Source of the DNA: an uncultured Pseudomonadota bacterium
GTDB taxonomy: Bacteria; Pseudomonadota; Alphaproteobacteria; Rs-D84
Direction of reading: 5' to 3'
DNA length: 64,000 nt
Assembly (NCBI GenBank): GCA_900320405.1
Contig: OOHM01000002.1
Location: 1 to 64,000, forward strand
Part shown: positions 9,151 through 63,567 of the stretch, in pieces
Numbering within the stretch: position 1 is the stretch's first letter
Layout: each line of letters starts with the position of its first letter
Position numbers and translations under genes: made by a program
Notes under the pieces: generated by a model
Database searches by the model: none
What the model was told of the DNA's origin: nothing
Seen by the model: only the letters and a program-made list of their open reading frames with translations

Positions 9151-10395
9151 TTATTTTAGTTTTATTGTTTTAATATCGTATCCCGTTGGTGCCGTGCGTA
9201 CATATGTCAAATAGTTACCCGATGTCGGCAATGACACCTTCTCGATTAGATTACCATTTGAACGCAATTCAATCAAGCCACTTTTATTATTCGGCACACG
9301 CAAAACAGATATAGTTTTCGGTAATGTTGCCCACGTGCGCACATCCGCACTGTTTGTAATTTCTGAATACAGTGTCGACAACAAACCCAACCAAGACGCG
9401 TTGCCCGAATGCGAATTATACATTGTTGTTTGCAATATAACACGGGCGGATGCGGACGCGAATGCACGCAGCGCATCATTTATTCTGTATTCGCCATATT
9501 CTGTCATAAACATTGCGTCAACATTTGCCAATTCTTGGGCATTATCAATATGTACAATATTATTTGAAAACACCGGTTCAGATGTCGCAATTGTCACCGT
9601 GGTTAAACCGTTCCCATGCATAATTGGTAAACTAAGCCGGCGTTCGGTCAATTTCGGTGCAAAACCGTCTTCAATAAAAACCCAAACCGTGTTTTTTGGA
9701 ATTGTGCCGAATTCCGCGTTTTTCAAATCTTGGGCAACAAAGGTATTTTTTGGCATCATACCATTCGCACGCGACAGATATGTTTTCGCATCATTAAAAT
9801 CGCCGTTATTCAAGAAATATATACCCGACAAATACATCAATGCCGGATTCATAATATCGCGATATGCCGTCCATTTAGAATTTTCGTTACGCAGGTTGGT
9901 TGTTAATTCTGTATTTTCTGTAAAAGATTTCTGATTCGATTCTATCAATTTTTCATATGCGCGCGACATATCGGTTTGACGCGCATAAGATTGATTGATT
10001 ATAACGCGCGCATCATCATATCGACCGTCAATCAATGCCGCCCATAATTGGTAATATGACACAAACAATGAATCCATCATATACGGTTTATAATCGTTTG
10101 CATTTGGACCCAATGTTAAAGATGTGGCTTCACGCAATATATCCCCGCCATCGGCAACACCCGGGTTTTTACGATTAAATATTTCGTATGCATTGTCTGC
10201 GCCACGAATATCATCTGCGTGAAACATTGCATCCGCCGTAATTAATAAATCAAGATTGTTTTTATTTTCCACATCCGACGCATCAACGGGTACATTCATA
10301 TACCCGGCGCGAATCGAATCAATACGCGATTCGACCGTGGCACTGCATCCCGCCAACAACAATCCAATGATTAAAAAACGTGAAAATTTTAACAT
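9151..10395 (-). CDS. COG3014-like TPR lipoprotein
   Basis: A 414-residue predicted lipoprotein (MLKFSRFLIIGLLLAGC, Cys17). Residues about 40-230 are helical and TPR-like, including GDFNDAKTYLSRANGMMPKN; the C-terminal part is beta-rich with WVFIEDGFAPKLTERRLSLP. This matches the COG3014 group of uncharacterised lipoproteins, which are often encoded next to an LpoB-like protein, as here. It starts 4 bases after the coupling ATPase stop codon, so all three genes should form one transcript. Its role is unknown; cell-wall or envelope assembly is inferred from its partner. Confidence 0.8.
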   Translation of the reverse strand: MLKFSRFLIIGLLLAGCSATVESRIDSIRAGYMNVPVDASDVENKNNLDLLITADAMFHADDIRGADNAYEIFNRKNPGVADGGDILREATSLTLGPNANDYKPYMMDSLFVSYYQLWAALIDGRYDDARVIINQSYARQTDMSRAYEKLIESNQKSFTENTELTTNLRNENSKWTAYRDIMNPALMYLSGIYFLNNGDFNDAKTYLSRANGMMPKNTFVAQDLKNAEFGTIPKNTVWVFIEDGFAPKLTERRLSLPIMHGNGLTTVTIATSEPVFSNNIVHIDNAQELANVDAMFMTEYGEYRINDALRAFASASARVILQTTMYNSHSGNASWLGLLSTLYSEITNSADVRTWATLPKTISVLRVPNNKSGLIELRSNGNLIEKVSLPTSGNYLTYVRTAPTGYDIKTIKLK

Positions 10396-52511: not shown

Positions 52512-52532
52512 ATGAAACGAATGCAAAACTAA
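52512..52532 (+). CDS. Possible metG leader peptide (MKRMQN)
   Basis: A six-codon frame, ATG AAA CGA ATG CAA AAC then TAA, lies 32 bases before a terminator hairpin upstream of metG. Two of six codons are Met. The layout resembles the ileS leader, but the ribosome binding site is poor (GAGAG) and no promoter is clear. This is a weak candidate. Confidence 0.25.
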   Translation: MKRMQN

Positions 52533-52563
52533 TTTTGGACACAACATAAAAACGGGAATTCTT

Positions 52564-52591
52564 GGGACGCCCCGTTTGGCGTCCCTTTTTT
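52564..52591 (+). terminator. Terminator hairpin in metG leader
   Basis: GGGACGCC-CCGTTT-GGCGTCCC followed by six Ts ends 19 bases before the metG ATG. Any metG transcript must pass it, so it may be an attenuator, or the terminator of the tRNA-Val transcript. Confidence 0.85.
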
Positions 52592-52610: not shown

Positions 52611-54236
52611 ATGGGCAAAAAATATCTTATTACATCTGCTTTACCATACGTGAATAATAACCTGCATATCGGGCATTTGATTGGTTGTTTGTTGCCAAGT
52701 GATGTTTATGCGCGCTTTTGTCGTGCGTGCGGCCGCGATGTATTGTATATCGGTGGTTCCGATGAACACGGCACACCATCCGAAATTGGTGCCGCACGCG
52801 AAAATATGCCGGTTGAAGAATATGTTGAAAAATATCGTGCAAAACACTTGGATGTGGTGCGCGATTTCAAATTGTCTTTTGATTTATATGGGCGGACGCA
52901 TACCGCGCAACACGAAAAACTGATTCACGAATTGTTTAATCGTCTGGACAGTCTGGGTATGATAGAAGAAAAAGTATCTGTGCAGCCGTATTCGGCGGGT
53001 GAAAAGAAATTCTTGGCCGACCGTTATGTTATTGGAACATGTCCGCGCTGTGGCCACGATAAAGCATATGGAAATGAATGTGAAAAATGTGGTGCATCAT
53101 TAGACCCAGATGAATTGATAAACCCGCACAGTGCAATTGACCCATCGTCGCCGGTTGAAATGCGCGAAACAAAACACCTGTATTTCAAATTGAGTAAAAT
53201 GCAGGATAAATTGCGCGCATGGGTAAATTCACGCGTTGGTTGGCCTAAAACCGCGATTACAATTGCAAACAAATGGTTGGACGAAGGTCTGCGCGACAAC
53301 CCAATAACCCGCGATTTGAAATGGGGTGTTCCGGTCAACAAACCTGGATATGAAGACAAGGTTTTTTATGTTTGGTTTGATGCGCCGTGGGGGTATGTTT
53401 CTATTTCGCAAATTGCGACCCCAGATTGGGCGTCTTGGTGGAAAAACCCCGATTGCCACTATACAGAATTTATGGGTAAAGATAATGTATCTTTCCATTC
53501 GGTATTCTTTCCAGCCCAGGAATTGGCAATGGATGATGCCTGGAAAACCGTTGATACATTAAAGGCATTTAATTTTATGAACTTTAATGGTGCGAAAATT
53601 TCAAAATCTACGGGTAATGGCGTATTCTTGGATGCAGCATTGGATATCGCACCAAGCGATTGTTGGCGGTATGCATTGCTTGCATCTGCGCCGGAAACGG
53701 ACGATACAGATTTTACGATGACGCGTTTTGCGGAAATTGTGAATAAAGATTTGAATGGTTTGCTGGGCAATTTTGTATCACGTGTATGCAAACTGTCGAA
53801 CAAAAACTTTGGTGATACTGTACCGGCGGGGGGCGCAATAGACGAAACATTGGCGCACCGCGTTAACGAAAAATTGGCAGAATTGACCGGTTGCCTGGAC
53901 GCGTGCGAATTCCGAAAATCTATTGTTGCATTGCGTGATATTTATGGAATTGCCAATGAATATATGACGGAACGTGAACCGTGGACACTTGTCAAGAACG
54001 GTGACACGGCGGGTGCGACTGCGGTGCTGAACGAATGTTTTCAATTGATTGATTTGTTTGCGCGCGTGTCTGCACCGGTTATTCCGGACGCGGCAGAAAA
54101 GATACAAAACATATTCGACATCAAACACGATTTGTCTTGGCCAACCATGTACGAACACAGAATCGAATCAGGCGAAAAATTCACCGTGCCAGAAAATCTG
54201 TTTACACGTATTGAATTGGAATCAACCAAGGAGTAA
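52611..54236 (+). CDS. metG: Methionyl-tRNA synthetase
   Basis: MetRS charges initiator and elongator tRNA-Met. The 541-residue class I synthetase has the HIGH motif (19-22), the zinc knuckle CPRCGHDKAYGNECEKCG and the KMSKS-type loop AKISKSTGNG. The anticodon-binding helical domain follows. It lacks the C-terminal dimerisation domain found in the 677-residue E. coli enzyme, as in many short MetRS. AAAAGGATG lies before the ATG. A terminator-like hairpin in the leader suggests regulation by attenuation. Confidence 0.97.
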   Translation: MGKKYLITSALPYVNNNLHIGHLIGCLLPSDVYARFCRACGRDVLYIGGSDEHGTPSEIGAARENMPVEEYVEKYRAKHLDVVRDFKLSFDLYGRTHTAQHEKLIHELFNRLDSLGMIEEKVSVQPYSAGEKKFLADRYVIGTCPRCGHDKAYGNECEKCGASLDPDELINPHSAIDPSSPVEMRETKHLYFKLSKMQDKLRAWVNSRVGWPKTAITIANKWLDEGLRDNPITRDLKWGVPVNKPGYEDKVFYVWFDAPWGYVSISQIATPDWASWWKNPDCHYTEFMGKDNVSFHSVFFPAQELAMDDAWKTVDTLKAFNFMNFNGAKISKSTGNGVFLDAALDIAPSDCWRYALLASAPETDDTDFTMTRFAEIVNKDLNGLLGNFVSRVCKLSNKNFGDTVPAGGAIDETLAHRVNEKLAELTGCLDACEFRKSIVALRDIYGIANEYMTEREPWTLVKNGDTAGATAVLNECFQLIDLFARVSAPVIPDAAEKIQNIFDIKHDLSWPTMYEHRIESGEKFTVPENLFTRIELESTKE

Positions 54237-59544: not shown

Positions 59545-62500
59545 TTATTTTACCCGTTCGATTGATACACCAAAATTATATCCTTCGATTTCCGTAAAGT
59601 GTTCCGCAGGCCCCGCCGACATTTCACGGATAAGTGCATCCGTCATAATGCGTTTACGGTGTTGTTCAATTGCCCCCGACAGCGCCAAATCCGCCGTATA
59701 GGTCAATTTGATACGGTCCGACACATCCAATCCAATCGCCTTGCGCGTGTCTTGGATAAATCGCAGTGCATCGTTTGCCAAACCTTCGGCAATCAATTCA
59801 GAATTTAATTCTGTATCCAAAACGACTACCGCGGTATTGTCCGGCAACGCCATACCCGTGATACCATCGCGAATATTCAAACGGTTTTCAAATTCGTCCG
59901 CATTTAATATGTATGCACCAACAACCAATTTATCACCGTCAATTTCATAATCACCACGTTTGACCGCCGGTACAATATCACGCAATGCACCGCCCAGGCG
60001 CGCGCCAATCTTTGGTGTGATTAAATATATGAAACTGTCTGCAACCTTGGCGGTGTTATCAACCCACTCAACAGATTTTACATTTAATTCATCACGGATG
60101 ATGTTTGTATATTCTGTCATCGGTGTGCCACCTGCGACGGTCAATTTCGACAATGGTAAACGATTACGCAATTTATACTGTTCACGTAATTGTTTTCCCG
60201 TGGATACTATTTCTTGGACACGACGCATATCAGATACGATTTTTTCATTCATATCCACCGCAGTTGGCCAATCGGTCAAATGCACAGATTCCGCCCCCGT
60301 CAGGTTTTTATAGATATATTCCGATATAAACGGTGCGAATGGCGCCATTAAACGGCATACCATAACCAACACTGTATACAGTGTGTTAAACGCATCTGTA
60401 TCTTCGTCCCAGAAACGCGAACGCGAACGGCGGATATACCAATTGTTTAACACATCCAAGAATCGAACAAATTCCTTGACCGCCGTGTCCGGTTTATATT
60501 CCGCCAGGGCGTTATCAACAATGCGTATCAAAACATTTGTTTCTGCCAAGATATATTCATCCAACGCGTTGTGTGTCGGCGCACCCCACACATCGTGTGC
60601 GGTGATATTGCCGGCATTCGCATACAATGTAAAGAAGTGATACGCATTCCACAACGGCGTCAAAATCGTTTTAATAGATTCTGCAAAAACTTTGCCTTCT
60701 TTGTCCACTGGGACAGGTTCGGCCTTCATAAAATTACTGCCCAGTATGAACAAACGCACCGCATCTGCACCATAAACATCCAATTGTTCTTCGGGATTAA
60801 CAAAATTACGAAGTGATTTTGAAAATTTGCGTTTATTTTCATCCACAATCATACCGTTTGCAGAAACGACCTTAAATGCCGGTTTGTCGAATAATATAAC
60901 TGCAACAACCATTAGCGAATAAAACCAACCACGCGTTTGGTCTTGACCTTCGATAATATAATCGGCCGGAAAAGTTTGTTCAAACAATTCACGGTTTTCA
61001 AACGGATAGTGCAGGGATGCAAACGGCATAGAACCCGATTCAAACCAACAATCCAAAACATCGGGAATGCGTTTCCATCCGTCTTTGGTCAGCGCATCCA
61101 GTGTCGGACGATGTAAATCATCGATTTTTACACCAAAGAATTCTTCCAATTCTGCGATTGAACCAAAGATTTTGTATTCGCCGGAACGCTCCCAAATTGG
61201 TAATGGAACACCCCAAAAACGATTGCGCGAAATACCCCATGGACGCGCATTTTCAATCCACGACAAGAAACGATTTCCCGCCGATGTCCATATGGTCTCG
61301 TTTTTGGTTATTTCAACCAGGCGGTCACGGATTTTTGGCACATCAATATACCACGCGTCCGTTGCCCGATATATAAGTTTTTCTTTACTGCGCGGACCAA
61401 ATGGATAACTGTGTTTATGTTGGTCTTTTTTAACCAATCGGCCGTTCGCGCGCAACCAATCGATTATCTTTGGATTCGCGACAAAGATATTTTCACCCGC
61501 CCAATCGGCGACGGTTGAATCAAAATTACCATAATCATCGACATTTAAAATAACCGGGAATTGCGGGTCAATTGCCTTGGCCACAATATAGTCATCTTCA
61601 CCATAGGCCGGTGCAATATGCACAATACCGGTACCATCAGTATCGGACACATAGTCCCCAGAAATTACCGTATACAGACCGTGTCCATCCTTTGCCAAAT
61701 CGGTGTAATACGGGAAAAGCGGCGTATAGTGCATTCCAACAAGTTCGCCCCCCATATATTCACCAACCCGTTCAGATGTAGCAAATATTTTTTCATATGC
61801 GGACAGGCGCGATTCTGCCAGAACATAAATATGCCCATCATTATGTTTCATACGAACATATTTCATATTATTATTCACCGCCAATGCAGAATTCGCCGGC
61901 AATGTCCACGGCGTCGTTGTCCACGCCATAACCCGGTCACCGTTTTCCAATTCAAACCAAACCGTCACGGTATCATCAACAATATCTTGGTATTCGGATG
62001 ATGCCTCGGAATTAGATAAAACTGTTCCCAATTTCCAATCGTACGGATTAACCTTAAAATCTTTATACAGCAATCCGCGTTTATGCATTTCTTTAATTGC
62101 CCATATCACGGATTCCATAAAGTTTTTATCCATGGTGCGATATCCGTAATCATCGCCACCATCAACCCAACGACCAACGCGTTCAATAAATTTCAACCAT
62201 TCGTTGGTGTATGTCATAACATCCATTCGACACATATCACAGAACGCCGATATGCCGTCATTTGCAACAATATCTTTAGCGGTGCGACCTTGTTTTTTCT
62301 CAACCGATGCCTCGGCCGGCAGACCGTGGCAATCCCACCCCAATGCGCGTTCAACATGGTTGCCACGCATTGTTTGATAACGCGAAACCATATCTTTGAC
62401 CGCAGAAACGCCCAGGTGCCCCCAATGGGGCAGACCGTTCGCAAAGGGTGGTCCATCATAAAAACTGAACGGATGACCCTGTTTTGTTTTTTCCAACGAT

Positions 62501-62592
62501 TTATGAAAAGTATCATCTTTGCGCCAGAACTCTATCATATCATGTTCCAACGACACCAAGTCCGCTTTGGGTTCTGTTTTTGGATATGCCAT
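59545..62592 (-). CDS. ileS: Isoleucyl-tRNA synthetase, eukaryote-like type (IleS2)
   Basis: IleRS charges tRNA-Ile. The 1015-residue class I enzyme has FYDGPPFANGLPHWGHL (HIGH motif as HWGH, 56-59), GWDCHGLPAE, a central editing domain and the KMSKS loop KRKFSKSLRN. The PFANGLPHxGH form, the KFSKS loop and the lack of a C-terminal zinc finger mark the second, eukaryote-like IleRS type found in some bacteria. CGGAG precedes the ATG. Its leader has a short Ile-rich frame and a terminator hairpin, pointing to attenuation. nth is downstream. Confidence 0.96.
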   Translation of the reverse strand: MAYPKTEPKADLVSLEHDMIEFWRKDDTFHKSLEKTKQGHPFSFYDGPPFANGLPHWGHLGVSAVKDMVSRYQTMRGNHVERALGWDCHGLPAEASVEKKQGRTAKDIVANDGISAFCDMCRMDVMTYTNEWLKFIERVGRWVDGGDDYGYRTMDKNFMESVIWAIKEMHKRGLLYKDFKVNPYDWKLGTVLSNSEASSEYQDIVDDTVTVWFELENGDRVMAWTTTPWTLPANSALAVNNNMKYVRMKHNDGHIYVLAESRLSAYEKIFATSERVGEYMGGELVGMHYTPLFPYYTDLAKDGHGLYTVISGDYVSDTDGTGIVHIAPAYGEDDYIVAKAIDPQFPVILNVDDYGNFDSTVADWAGENIFVANPKIIDWLRANGRLVKKDQHKHSYPFGPRSKEKLIYRATDAWYIDVPKIRDRLVEITKNETIWTSAGNRFLSWIENARPWGISRNRFWGVPLPIWERSGEYKIFGSIAELEEFFGVKIDDLHRPTLDALTKDGWKRIPDVLDCWFESGSMPFASLHYPFENRELFEQTFPADYIIEGQDQTRGWFYSLMVVAVILFDKPAFKVVSANGMIVDENKRKFSKSLRNFVNPEEQLDVYGADAVRLFILGSNFMKAEPVPVDKEGKVFAESIKTILTPLWNAYHFFTLYANAGNITAHDVWGAPTHNALDEYILAETNVLIRIVDNALAEYKPDTAVKEFVRFLDVLNNWYIRRSRSRFWDEDTDAFNTLYTVLVMVCRLMAPFAPFISEYIYKNLTGAESVHLTDWPTAVDMNEKIVSDMRRVQEIVSTGKQLREQYKLRNRLPLSKLTVAGGTPMTEYTNIIRDELNVKSVEWVDNTAKVADSFIYLITPKIGARLGGALRDIVPAVKRGDYEIDGDKLVVGAYILNADEFENRLNIRDGITGMALPDNTAVVVLDTELNSELIAEGLANDALRFIQDTRKAIGLDVSDRIKLTYTADLALSGAIEQHRKRIMTDALIREMSAGPAEHFTEIEGYNFGVSIERVK

Positions 62593-62614
62593 CTTTTTTA
62601 CTCCGTATTTTTAT

Positions 62615-62640
62615 TATAAAAAACGGGCGCCCACGCGCCC
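62615..62640 (-). terminator. Terminator hairpin in ileS leader (candidate attenuator)
   Basis: GGGCGC-GTGG-GCGCCC followed by six Ts on the minus strand, ending about 22 bases before the ileS ATG and beginning 26 bases after the stop of the Ile-rich frame. Confidence 0.8.
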
Positions 62641-62666
62641 CAGCCAACGCCAAAGCGCGCCGCCGG

Positions 62667-62699
62667 TTATCTTATAATAATTATAGTTTTTTTGTTCAT
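62667..62699 (-). CDS. Candidate ileS leader peptide MNKKTIIIIR
   Basis: A 10-codon frame read on the minus strand: ATG AAC AAA AAA ACT ATA ATT ATT ATA AGA then TAA. Four consecutive codons are for isoleucine, two of them AUA, which needs a minor tRNA. A GC-rich segment and a terminator hairpin with a T run follow before ileS. This is the layout of ribosome-mediated attenuation, in which lack of charged tRNA-Ile would stall the ribosome and favour read-through into ileS. The ribosome binding site is weak (AAAGTG), and one possible -10 box, TATAAT at 62680-62685, overlaps the Ile codons, so the frame may not be transcribed. Confidence 0.5.
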   Translation of the reverse strand: MNKKTIIIIR

Positions 62700-62711
62700 T
62701 GCGTACACTTT

Positions 62712-62717
62712 AATATA
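62712..62717 (-). promoter_or_regulatory. Possible -10 box upstream of ileS leader peptide
   Basis: TATATT on the minus strand, 12 bases before the leader ATG; the -35 region is poor. The rival -10 box at 62680-62685 would start transcription inside the frame. Confidence 0.35.
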
Positions 62718-62811
62718 TAAAATTTTAAATTTCCAGTATTTTATTATCTTGCATAAAAATATTGACTGATGCACTTTTTGTGGAATAGTTAAAAAGAACA
62801 AAGGGATGAAA

Positions 62812-63375
62812 ATGAAAAATAATAAAAAATTAGATTCATGTTTGGGATATGTCGCGTGGTTTGGTGATTACGCAATTGCGGCCGCAACCGGCGTATTTAT
62901 TGCAGGGCGAAAAGTTCGTGAAGATATTATGGATGTGGAAAATATGACAAAATGGGTTCCCGTGTTCAAGACATATAAAAAACATTTTGTTGAGCATGTG
63001 AAAAAACACAACAATGATAAATTGTCTGTACGGGCGTTTACGCGGTATTTCGCGGGTACACAAAAATATAATCCGTTTGTAGAAATTGATAAGAAAAATC
63101 TTGGTGGCATTGTCGACAAGATAAACAACGCATATTGCGTATCATTGACATATTTTGAAGAAACCGAACACCAACGCGCGATGCCACAATCGTGCAAATT
63201 TGATGATTATATCATACAATTTGCATCCGATGGCACCGTGTGGTGCGGTGGCATACGCGGAAACGGATACATAAGTATTGTTGATTATAAGAATAAACAG
63301 ATTAAACCTGTGACACCAATATCACCAGAATTATCCGATTATTTGGCAAAATTGGTTATGCAGAAAGCACGGTAG
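62812..63375 (+). CDS. Hypothetical protein, 187 aa
   Basis: A protein starting MKNNKKLDSCLGYVAWFGDY. I prefer the ATG at 62812, because the one at 62806 touches the AAAGGG ribosome binding site. Residues about 12-32 are mildly hydrophobic (YVAWFGDYAIAAATGVFIAG) and may be a membrane-proximal helix. A basic helical region (KTYKKHFVEHVKKHNNDK) and a beta-rich C-terminus (IIQFASDGTVWCGGIRGNGYISIVD) follow. TTGACT lies upstream as a possible -35 box. I do not recognise a family. Confidence 0.65.
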   Translation: MKNNKKLDSCLGYVAWFGDYAIAAATGVFIAGRKVREDIMDVENMTKWVPVFKTYKKHFVEHVKKHNNDKLSVRAFTRYFAGTQKYNPFVEIDKKNLGGIVDKINNAYCVSLTYFEETEHQRAMPQSCKFDDYIIQFASDGTVWCGGIRGNGYISIVDYKNKQIKPVTPISPELSDYLAKLVMQKAR

Positions 63376-63491: not shown

Positions 63492-63567
63492 TGGTGCCGG
63501 TGATAAGACTCGAACTTACGACCCCCTCATTACGAATGAGATGCTCTACCAACTGAGCTACACCGGC
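63492..63567 (-). tRNA. tRNA-Thr (anticodon CGU)
   Basis: A 76-base gene on the minus strand: acceptor GCCGGTG/CACCGGC, anticodon loop TTCGTAA (CGU), T loop TTCGAGT, discriminator A and encoded CCA (63492-63494). Confidence 0.96.

Follow-up and report, generated by a model that had tools for sequence, protein, structure and literature searches.

A candidate ribosome-mediated attenuator with an isoleucine leader upstream of ileS in auxotrophic alphaproteobacteria of the order Rs-D84

Does the short reading frame with four consecutive Ile codons that precedes the isoleucyl-tRNA synthetase gene, ileS, tie expression of that gene to the charging of isoleucine tRNA? The frame occurs in a Candidatus Enterousia-like alphaproteobacterium of the order Rs-D84, with a genome of 914 kb and 39.7% G+C. 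The window, meaning the whole stretch of 64,000 nucleotides analysed here, comprises bases 1-64000 of contig C3. The genus Candidatus Enterousia reportedly has neither amino acid biosynthesis nor standard amino acid transporters (PMC12306168). IlvD (PF00920, dihydroxy-acid dehydratase) was found in none of 40 relatives by a search that was positive in 14 of 14 controls. Isoleucine must therefore come from outside, and control is possible only at charging or uptake. A preliminary description proposed that ileS is controlled by ribosome-mediated attenuation, and the parts of the locus are as follows.

62667..62699, minus strand: leader frame MNKKTIIIIR, kept in 95 of 95 distinct same-genus leaders
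62649..62660, minus strand: segment 2, the antiterminator 5' arm (GCGCGCUUUGGC), ~7 nt past the leader stop
62645..62662, minus strand: small hairpin in the antiterminator region, a possible pause or protector element on weaker evidence
62633..62644, minus strand: segment 3, the antiterminator 3' arm (GCUGGGGCGCGU), common to the terminator, from pairing and covariation
62625..62640, minus strand: predicted intrinsic terminator hairpin GGGCGC-GUGG-GCGCCC, -14.2 kcal/mol, from sequence and fold
62618..62623, minus strand: terminator U run, with four T columns invariant in the alignment
62601..62606, minus strand: ileS ribosome binding site ACGGAG
59545..62592, minus strand: ileS, isoleucyl-tRNA synthetase, 1015 aa (TIGR00392, 752 bits against a cut-off of 621)

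The synthetase is strongly similar to the MupA/MupB-like (type 2) group (MupA, 613 bits). The leader reads ATG AAC AAA AAA ACT ATA ATT ATT ATA AGA TAA from 62699 to 62667, with Ile at codons 6-9, as first described. Genome-wide, Ile is encoded by ATA, ATT and ATC at frequencies of 0.295, 0.524 and 0.181, respectively.

Conservation of this frame was assessed at 112 same-genus ileS loci, whose upstream regions gave the 95 distinct leaders. All 95 contain the short frame, which is exactly 10 codons long in 90. The run consists of exactly four Ile codons in 90 leaders, three in three leaders and five in two. Its first codon is ATA in 88 and ATC in 7; its second is ATT in 88, ATA in 3 and ATC in 4; its third is ATT in 92 and ATC in 3; and its fourth is ATT in 60, ATA in 30 and ATC in 2. 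Every third-base departure is thus synonymous (ATA/ATT/ATC), and Met (ATG), a single base away from ATA, is absent from the run in all 95 leaders. Residues ahead of the run are free to vary, and the stop codon can be TAA, TAG or TGA. Together these observations show that selection acts on the Ile codons. The mix of ATA and ATT would place codons needing different isoleucine tRNAs within one run.

It could be argued that the run is mere A+T-rich sequence ahead of an unregulated 5' terminator or a processed small RNA. The genome is indeed A+T-rich, and residue-run frames before terminator-like hairpins do occur in it: a chance estimate found seven short frames with a run of four identical residues in such a position, six of them Arg or Lys. 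A single genome is for this reason not decisive, whereas conservation in all 95 same-genus leaders is. Among a dozen other residue-run frames before terminators that were inspected in the genome, none lies ahead of an evident cognate synthetase. The strict conservation of frame and codons with synonymous-only third bases, which extends across genera and ileS lineages, and the recurrence of the pattern before thrS, where the cognate ACN Thr codons are not A+T-rich, make an unregulated terminator extremely unlikely.

The preliminary description placed a GGGCGC/GCGCCC hairpin with a T run 26 bases past the leader frame, and both are present (62640-62625 and 62623-62618), followed by the ileS ribosome binding site (62606-62601) and the ATG at 62592. 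A competing helix had also been proposed. It is real and longer than thought, pairing 62660-62649 with 62644-62633 over 12 bp (-19.1 kcal/mol). The pairing was analysed in 77 non-redundant leaders, across which segment 2, in most cases UGCGCUUUGGC, and segment 3 (GCUGGGGCGCA) form an 11-bp antiterminator helix. Antiterminator cells are paired at 92-95% (94.7% in the 77-leader alignment), falling to 28-59% when the partner is slid (32-57% in the same alignment). Compensatory changes were found in 7 of 11 pairs and were matched by 0 of 500 shuffles, in a set of 61 sequences including divergent genera; the alignment was model-guided and hence biased towards structure, and the sequences are related to each other, so the shuffle counts should not be read as probabilities. 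Of 59 leaders examined with an independent arm finder, 58 yielded both mutually exclusive hairpins. Three-way substitutions affecting segments 2, 3 and 4 at once are seen as GCAC/GGGGUGC/GCACCC in leaders L127 and L130 and as UACGC/GCGUA/ACGCCCC in the alignment rows of leader L003.

Other candidate pairings were not retained. The small hairpin inside segment 2 shows high pairing (88% of cells) with covariation no better than in shuffles, and its role as a protector was rejected. Covariation between the Ile codons and the U tract, which would pair over a long range, is suggestive by eye only; kinship and low complexity confound it, and the pairing is therefore not claimed. No covariance-model match to the Rfam amino-acid leader families was obtained, nor did the T-box model (RF00230) match the window or the ileS leader with the threshold relaxed to E 10, so the element is not classed as a T-box riboswitch.

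Three features of an attenuator are thus present at the locus: a conserved frame of cognate codons, a terminator between leader and gene as judged by sequence and fold, and a covarying antiterminator that shares the 5' arm of the terminator. The preliminary description had called for an alignment of the upstream regions of relatives, and this alignment bears it out, as the short frame, Ile codons and hairpins are kept and compensatory changes are present. It had also held that close relatives keeping the hairpins and losing the Ile run would speak against attenuation; none was seen. That the element is a ribosome-mediated transcription attenuator is accordingly well supported and considered very likely, the ribosome positions being modelled.

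Where transcription begins bears directly on this reading. Upstream of the leader lie two features on the same strand:

62700..62740, minus strand: promoter-like region (CTGGAA ... TATATTAA), by pattern only, ending ~9-12 nt before the leader ATG
63492..63567, minus strand: tRNA-Thr (CGT)

The position of the promoter-like region suggests that the transcript begins at the leader ATG or only a few nt from it; the TATAAT-like motifs here score only moderately above shuffled sequence. A Shine-Dalgarno sequence is missing from the leader frame in 87 of 95 relatives, so translation of the leader would rest on leaderless or near-leaderless initiation, whereas an SD-like motif precedes ileS in 92 of 95. 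An exact TATAAT overlaps the Ile codons at 62680-62685, from which ileS could be transcribed with the leader irrelevant, as the preliminary description cautioned. This TATAAT is found in only 6 of 95 relatives and is therefore not a conserved promoter. Promoter-like motifs instead lie upstream of the leader ATG, or of a tRNA-Thr gene from which transcription would continue into the leader, and an inner promoter has very little likelihood. The tRNA-Thr(CGT) gene lies directly upstream of the leader, 9-47 nt away, in 20 of 95 relatives; in the window, a gene without a family match occupies 62806-63375 on the opposite (plus) strand between the two.

As an attenuator, the element would probably turn ileS up when charged isoleucine tRNA is short. 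Transcription would start at the leader ATG or just ahead of it, with a ribosome following behind RNA polymerase. With ample Ile-tRNA, the ribosome would reach the leader stop and cover the start of segment 2, blocking the 2:3 antiterminator; segment 3 would then pair with segment 4, forming the terminator and stopping transcription ahead of ileS. When charged Ile-tRNA is scarce, the ribosome would wait at the four Ile codons and leave segment 2 free, allowing the 2:3 helix to form before segment 4 is made and the polymerase to continue into ileS.

The geometry of the leader was compared with this scheme by partition-function folding in which a moving 5' boundary represents the front edge of the ribosome. 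The distance from the leader stop to segment 2 is 6-9 nt in 76 of 77 leaders. Before segment 4 is made, the model gives the antiterminator a probability of 0.73-0.89 if the front edge sits as it would for a ribosome waiting at the Ile codons. For front edges past the stop the value is 0.74 at +10 nt, 0.33 at +12 and 0.09 at +14. A front edge at the classical distance of +10 nt thus removes only part of the modelled antiterminator, and a clean switch would require either a somewhat larger footprint or a contribution from kinetics. Once segment 4 is present the model favours the terminator, with a mean of 0.61-0.93 at most positions and 0.47 at +8, indicating that the order of events, not equilibrium, must decide. 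With no ribosome at all the model still favours the antiterminator early, unlike trp.

Control could alternatively act on translation, with a stalled ribosome rearranging the leader so as to expose or hide the ileS ribosome binding site, or with terminating ribosomes re-initiating at ileS. The full-length fold has the Ile codons paired to the U tract and following bases, near the ileS ribosome binding site, and re-initiation at leader genes has been discussed (PMC4833913). However, the hairpin and its invariant U run look like an intrinsic terminator, and it is with this hairpin that the conserved alternative helix competes, without involving the SD, which lies outside both helices. Translational control is consequently regarded as improbable, and transcription attenuation is preferred.

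Attenuation by leader peptides is textbook for amino acid biosynthesis. In enterobacteria, the ilvGMEDA and ilvBN operons are attenuated through leader peptides that respond to charged branched-chain tRNAs, Ile included in ilvGMEDA. Both are biosynthetic operons, whereas IlvD is missing from the genomes considered here. The pheST operon of E. coli, which encodes a tRNA synthetase, is controlled by an attenuator with the Phe-rich leader peptide pheM, and likewise combines a cognate-rich leader with alternative hairpins. The present element differs from it in using Ile rather than Phe, in gene, sequence and lineage, in having almost no leader Shine-Dalgarno and in its compact two-helix layout. 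Attenuators of synthetase operons have reportedly been surveyed by Lopatovskaya et al. in 2010.

The pheST attenuator is cited together with comparatively predicted leader-peptide attenuators of Streptomyces trpS and leuS and with His leaders of Bacillus hisS paralogs (PMC1262725, and for the predicted leaders also PMC2965389); these Streptomyces and Bacillus leaders also precede synthetase genes, in other phyla and for other amino acids. Actinobacterial ileS has been reported with translational T-boxes, not leader peptides (PMC1262725). The ileS T-boxes of Firmicutes and Actinobacteria resemble the present element in tying ileS expression to tRNA-Ile charging, but T-boxes bind uncharged tRNA directly, whereas here the leader would be translated and matches no T-box. 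An alphaproteobacterial precedent for leaderless leader translation is the trpL attenuator of Sinorhizobium meliloti, in which the RNA starts at the leader ATG (PMC7298713). That system concerns Trp and a biosynthetic gene, and the near-leaderless start proposed here derives from promoter-like motifs only. Leader-peptide control of synthetase genes is hence already known, while the ileS case and a set covering several synthetases were not found described: a full-text literature search on the genus and on attenuators, with subscription papers mostly outside its coverage, returned no ileS leader-peptide attenuator.

The ileS element does not appear to stand alone. Weak covariance-model matches in relatives proved to be leaders of metG and lysS, and a genome scan for terminators in 5' regions yielded ileS, metG, lysS and thrS, with gene identities confirmed by NCBIfam. 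The leaders at lysS, metG and thrS were not part of the preliminary description, although that of metG lies within the same window:

52512..52532, plus strand: metG leader frame MKRMQN, a sister element
52550..52591, plus strand: metG alternative hairpins, AAACGGG/CCCGUUU versus GGGACGCC/GGCGUCCC plus a U run, from sequence and fold
52611..54236, plus strand: metG, methionyl-tRNA synthetase (TIGR00398, 462 bits)

The metG leader with its hairpins (52512-52591) lies downstream of a tRNA-Val gene, the leader ~80 nt before metG. The sister leaders were compared in 29-30 relatives. A metG leader frame containing CGAATG is found in 15 of 30, and the second metG helix was detected in about half of the leaders by an automatic search, a fraction lowered in part by terminators with interrupted U runs that the finder missed. 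The lysS leader (L230 ~10080-10219; G000:C4 ~250080-250219, plus strand) reads MCKKSLL, or MRTMCKKSLL from an upstream ATG. At least two Lys codons are present in nearly all relatives, with a KK or KR core, and mutually exclusive hairpins of the type GUGCG/CGCAC versus GACGGACGC/GCGUCCGU occur in 29 of 30, with GAUGCG/CGCAUC compensation. The thrS leader MKQFVFIFTTTTTTTPFGVR contains seven Thr codons (L204:4480-4660; G000:C3 ~188480-188660, plus strand). Leaders with 4-8 Thr codons precede thrS in 29 of 29 relatives (L279-L308), and Thr-rich thrS leaders are also present in further genera and perhaps in additional families. The thrS frame overlaps at its end with a CCCC/GGGG hairpin, after which comes a TATAATC-like motif; no obvious terminator with a U run was seen in this leader, so the mechanism may differ.

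In Rs-D84, where amino acid biosynthesis has been lost, it is likely that at least ileS, lysS, metG and thrS form an attenuation regulon acting on charging, as separate switches each with a leader for its own amino acid. Leader-peptide attenuation would here be placed on charging enzymes in the near-minimal genomes of host-associated auxotrophs. If confirmed, this would show regulation surviving genome reduction, add ileS, lysS, metG and thrS to the genes under leader-peptide control, and provide a built-in reporter of amino acid limitation in uncultured gut bacteria through metatranscriptome readthrough ratios. Upstream of aspS (L199:17263-17457, G000:C3) there is a sub-threshold T-box match of 27.9 bits against a cut-off of 93, in which the GGGUGGCACCGCG motif is clear. 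Because stem I is matched within the likely promoter, this could be a remnant T-box, a minimal one or a chance match.

The ileS element occurs once in this genome by covariance model, with other matches at E > 1. Across the order the model matches 167 of 201 genomes at E 0.1, nearly all in family f1, and in a class-wide sample of 385 genomes the element was found only in family members apart from one weak match (E 0.005). Eleven same-genus genomes lack it, among them G109, which was matched only via its metG leader. Eight of the eleven show no 5' part of ileS in the assembly and in one the ileS match starts only at residue 39, while G110 and G111 keep ileS with the leader missing. In other genera of the family the element is present in ~20 of 27 genomes, and in four of these the ileS proteins are 40-45% identical to that of the window. 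ileS without the leader occurs in three genomes of genus g26 and in the other families of the order that were examined.

Several variations accompany this distribution. G199 carries two ileS copies (L173, L194), each with its own Ile leader. Some genera have an acetyltransferase-like or other gene between the Ile leader and ileS, and the order leader, acetyltransferase-like gene, ileS in L252, L253 and L256 suggests a two-gene operon under the Ile switch in some genera; the name was given by eye only, two partial proteins having no Pfam match. Members of family f6 (L186 in G042, L193 in G039) have a different short frame before ileS (MFQINQEIIFRIPVWGN and MFNQKIIYRIPCGGQ, respectively) together with a CCCC/GGGG hairpin, and this may represent an unrelated Ile leader.
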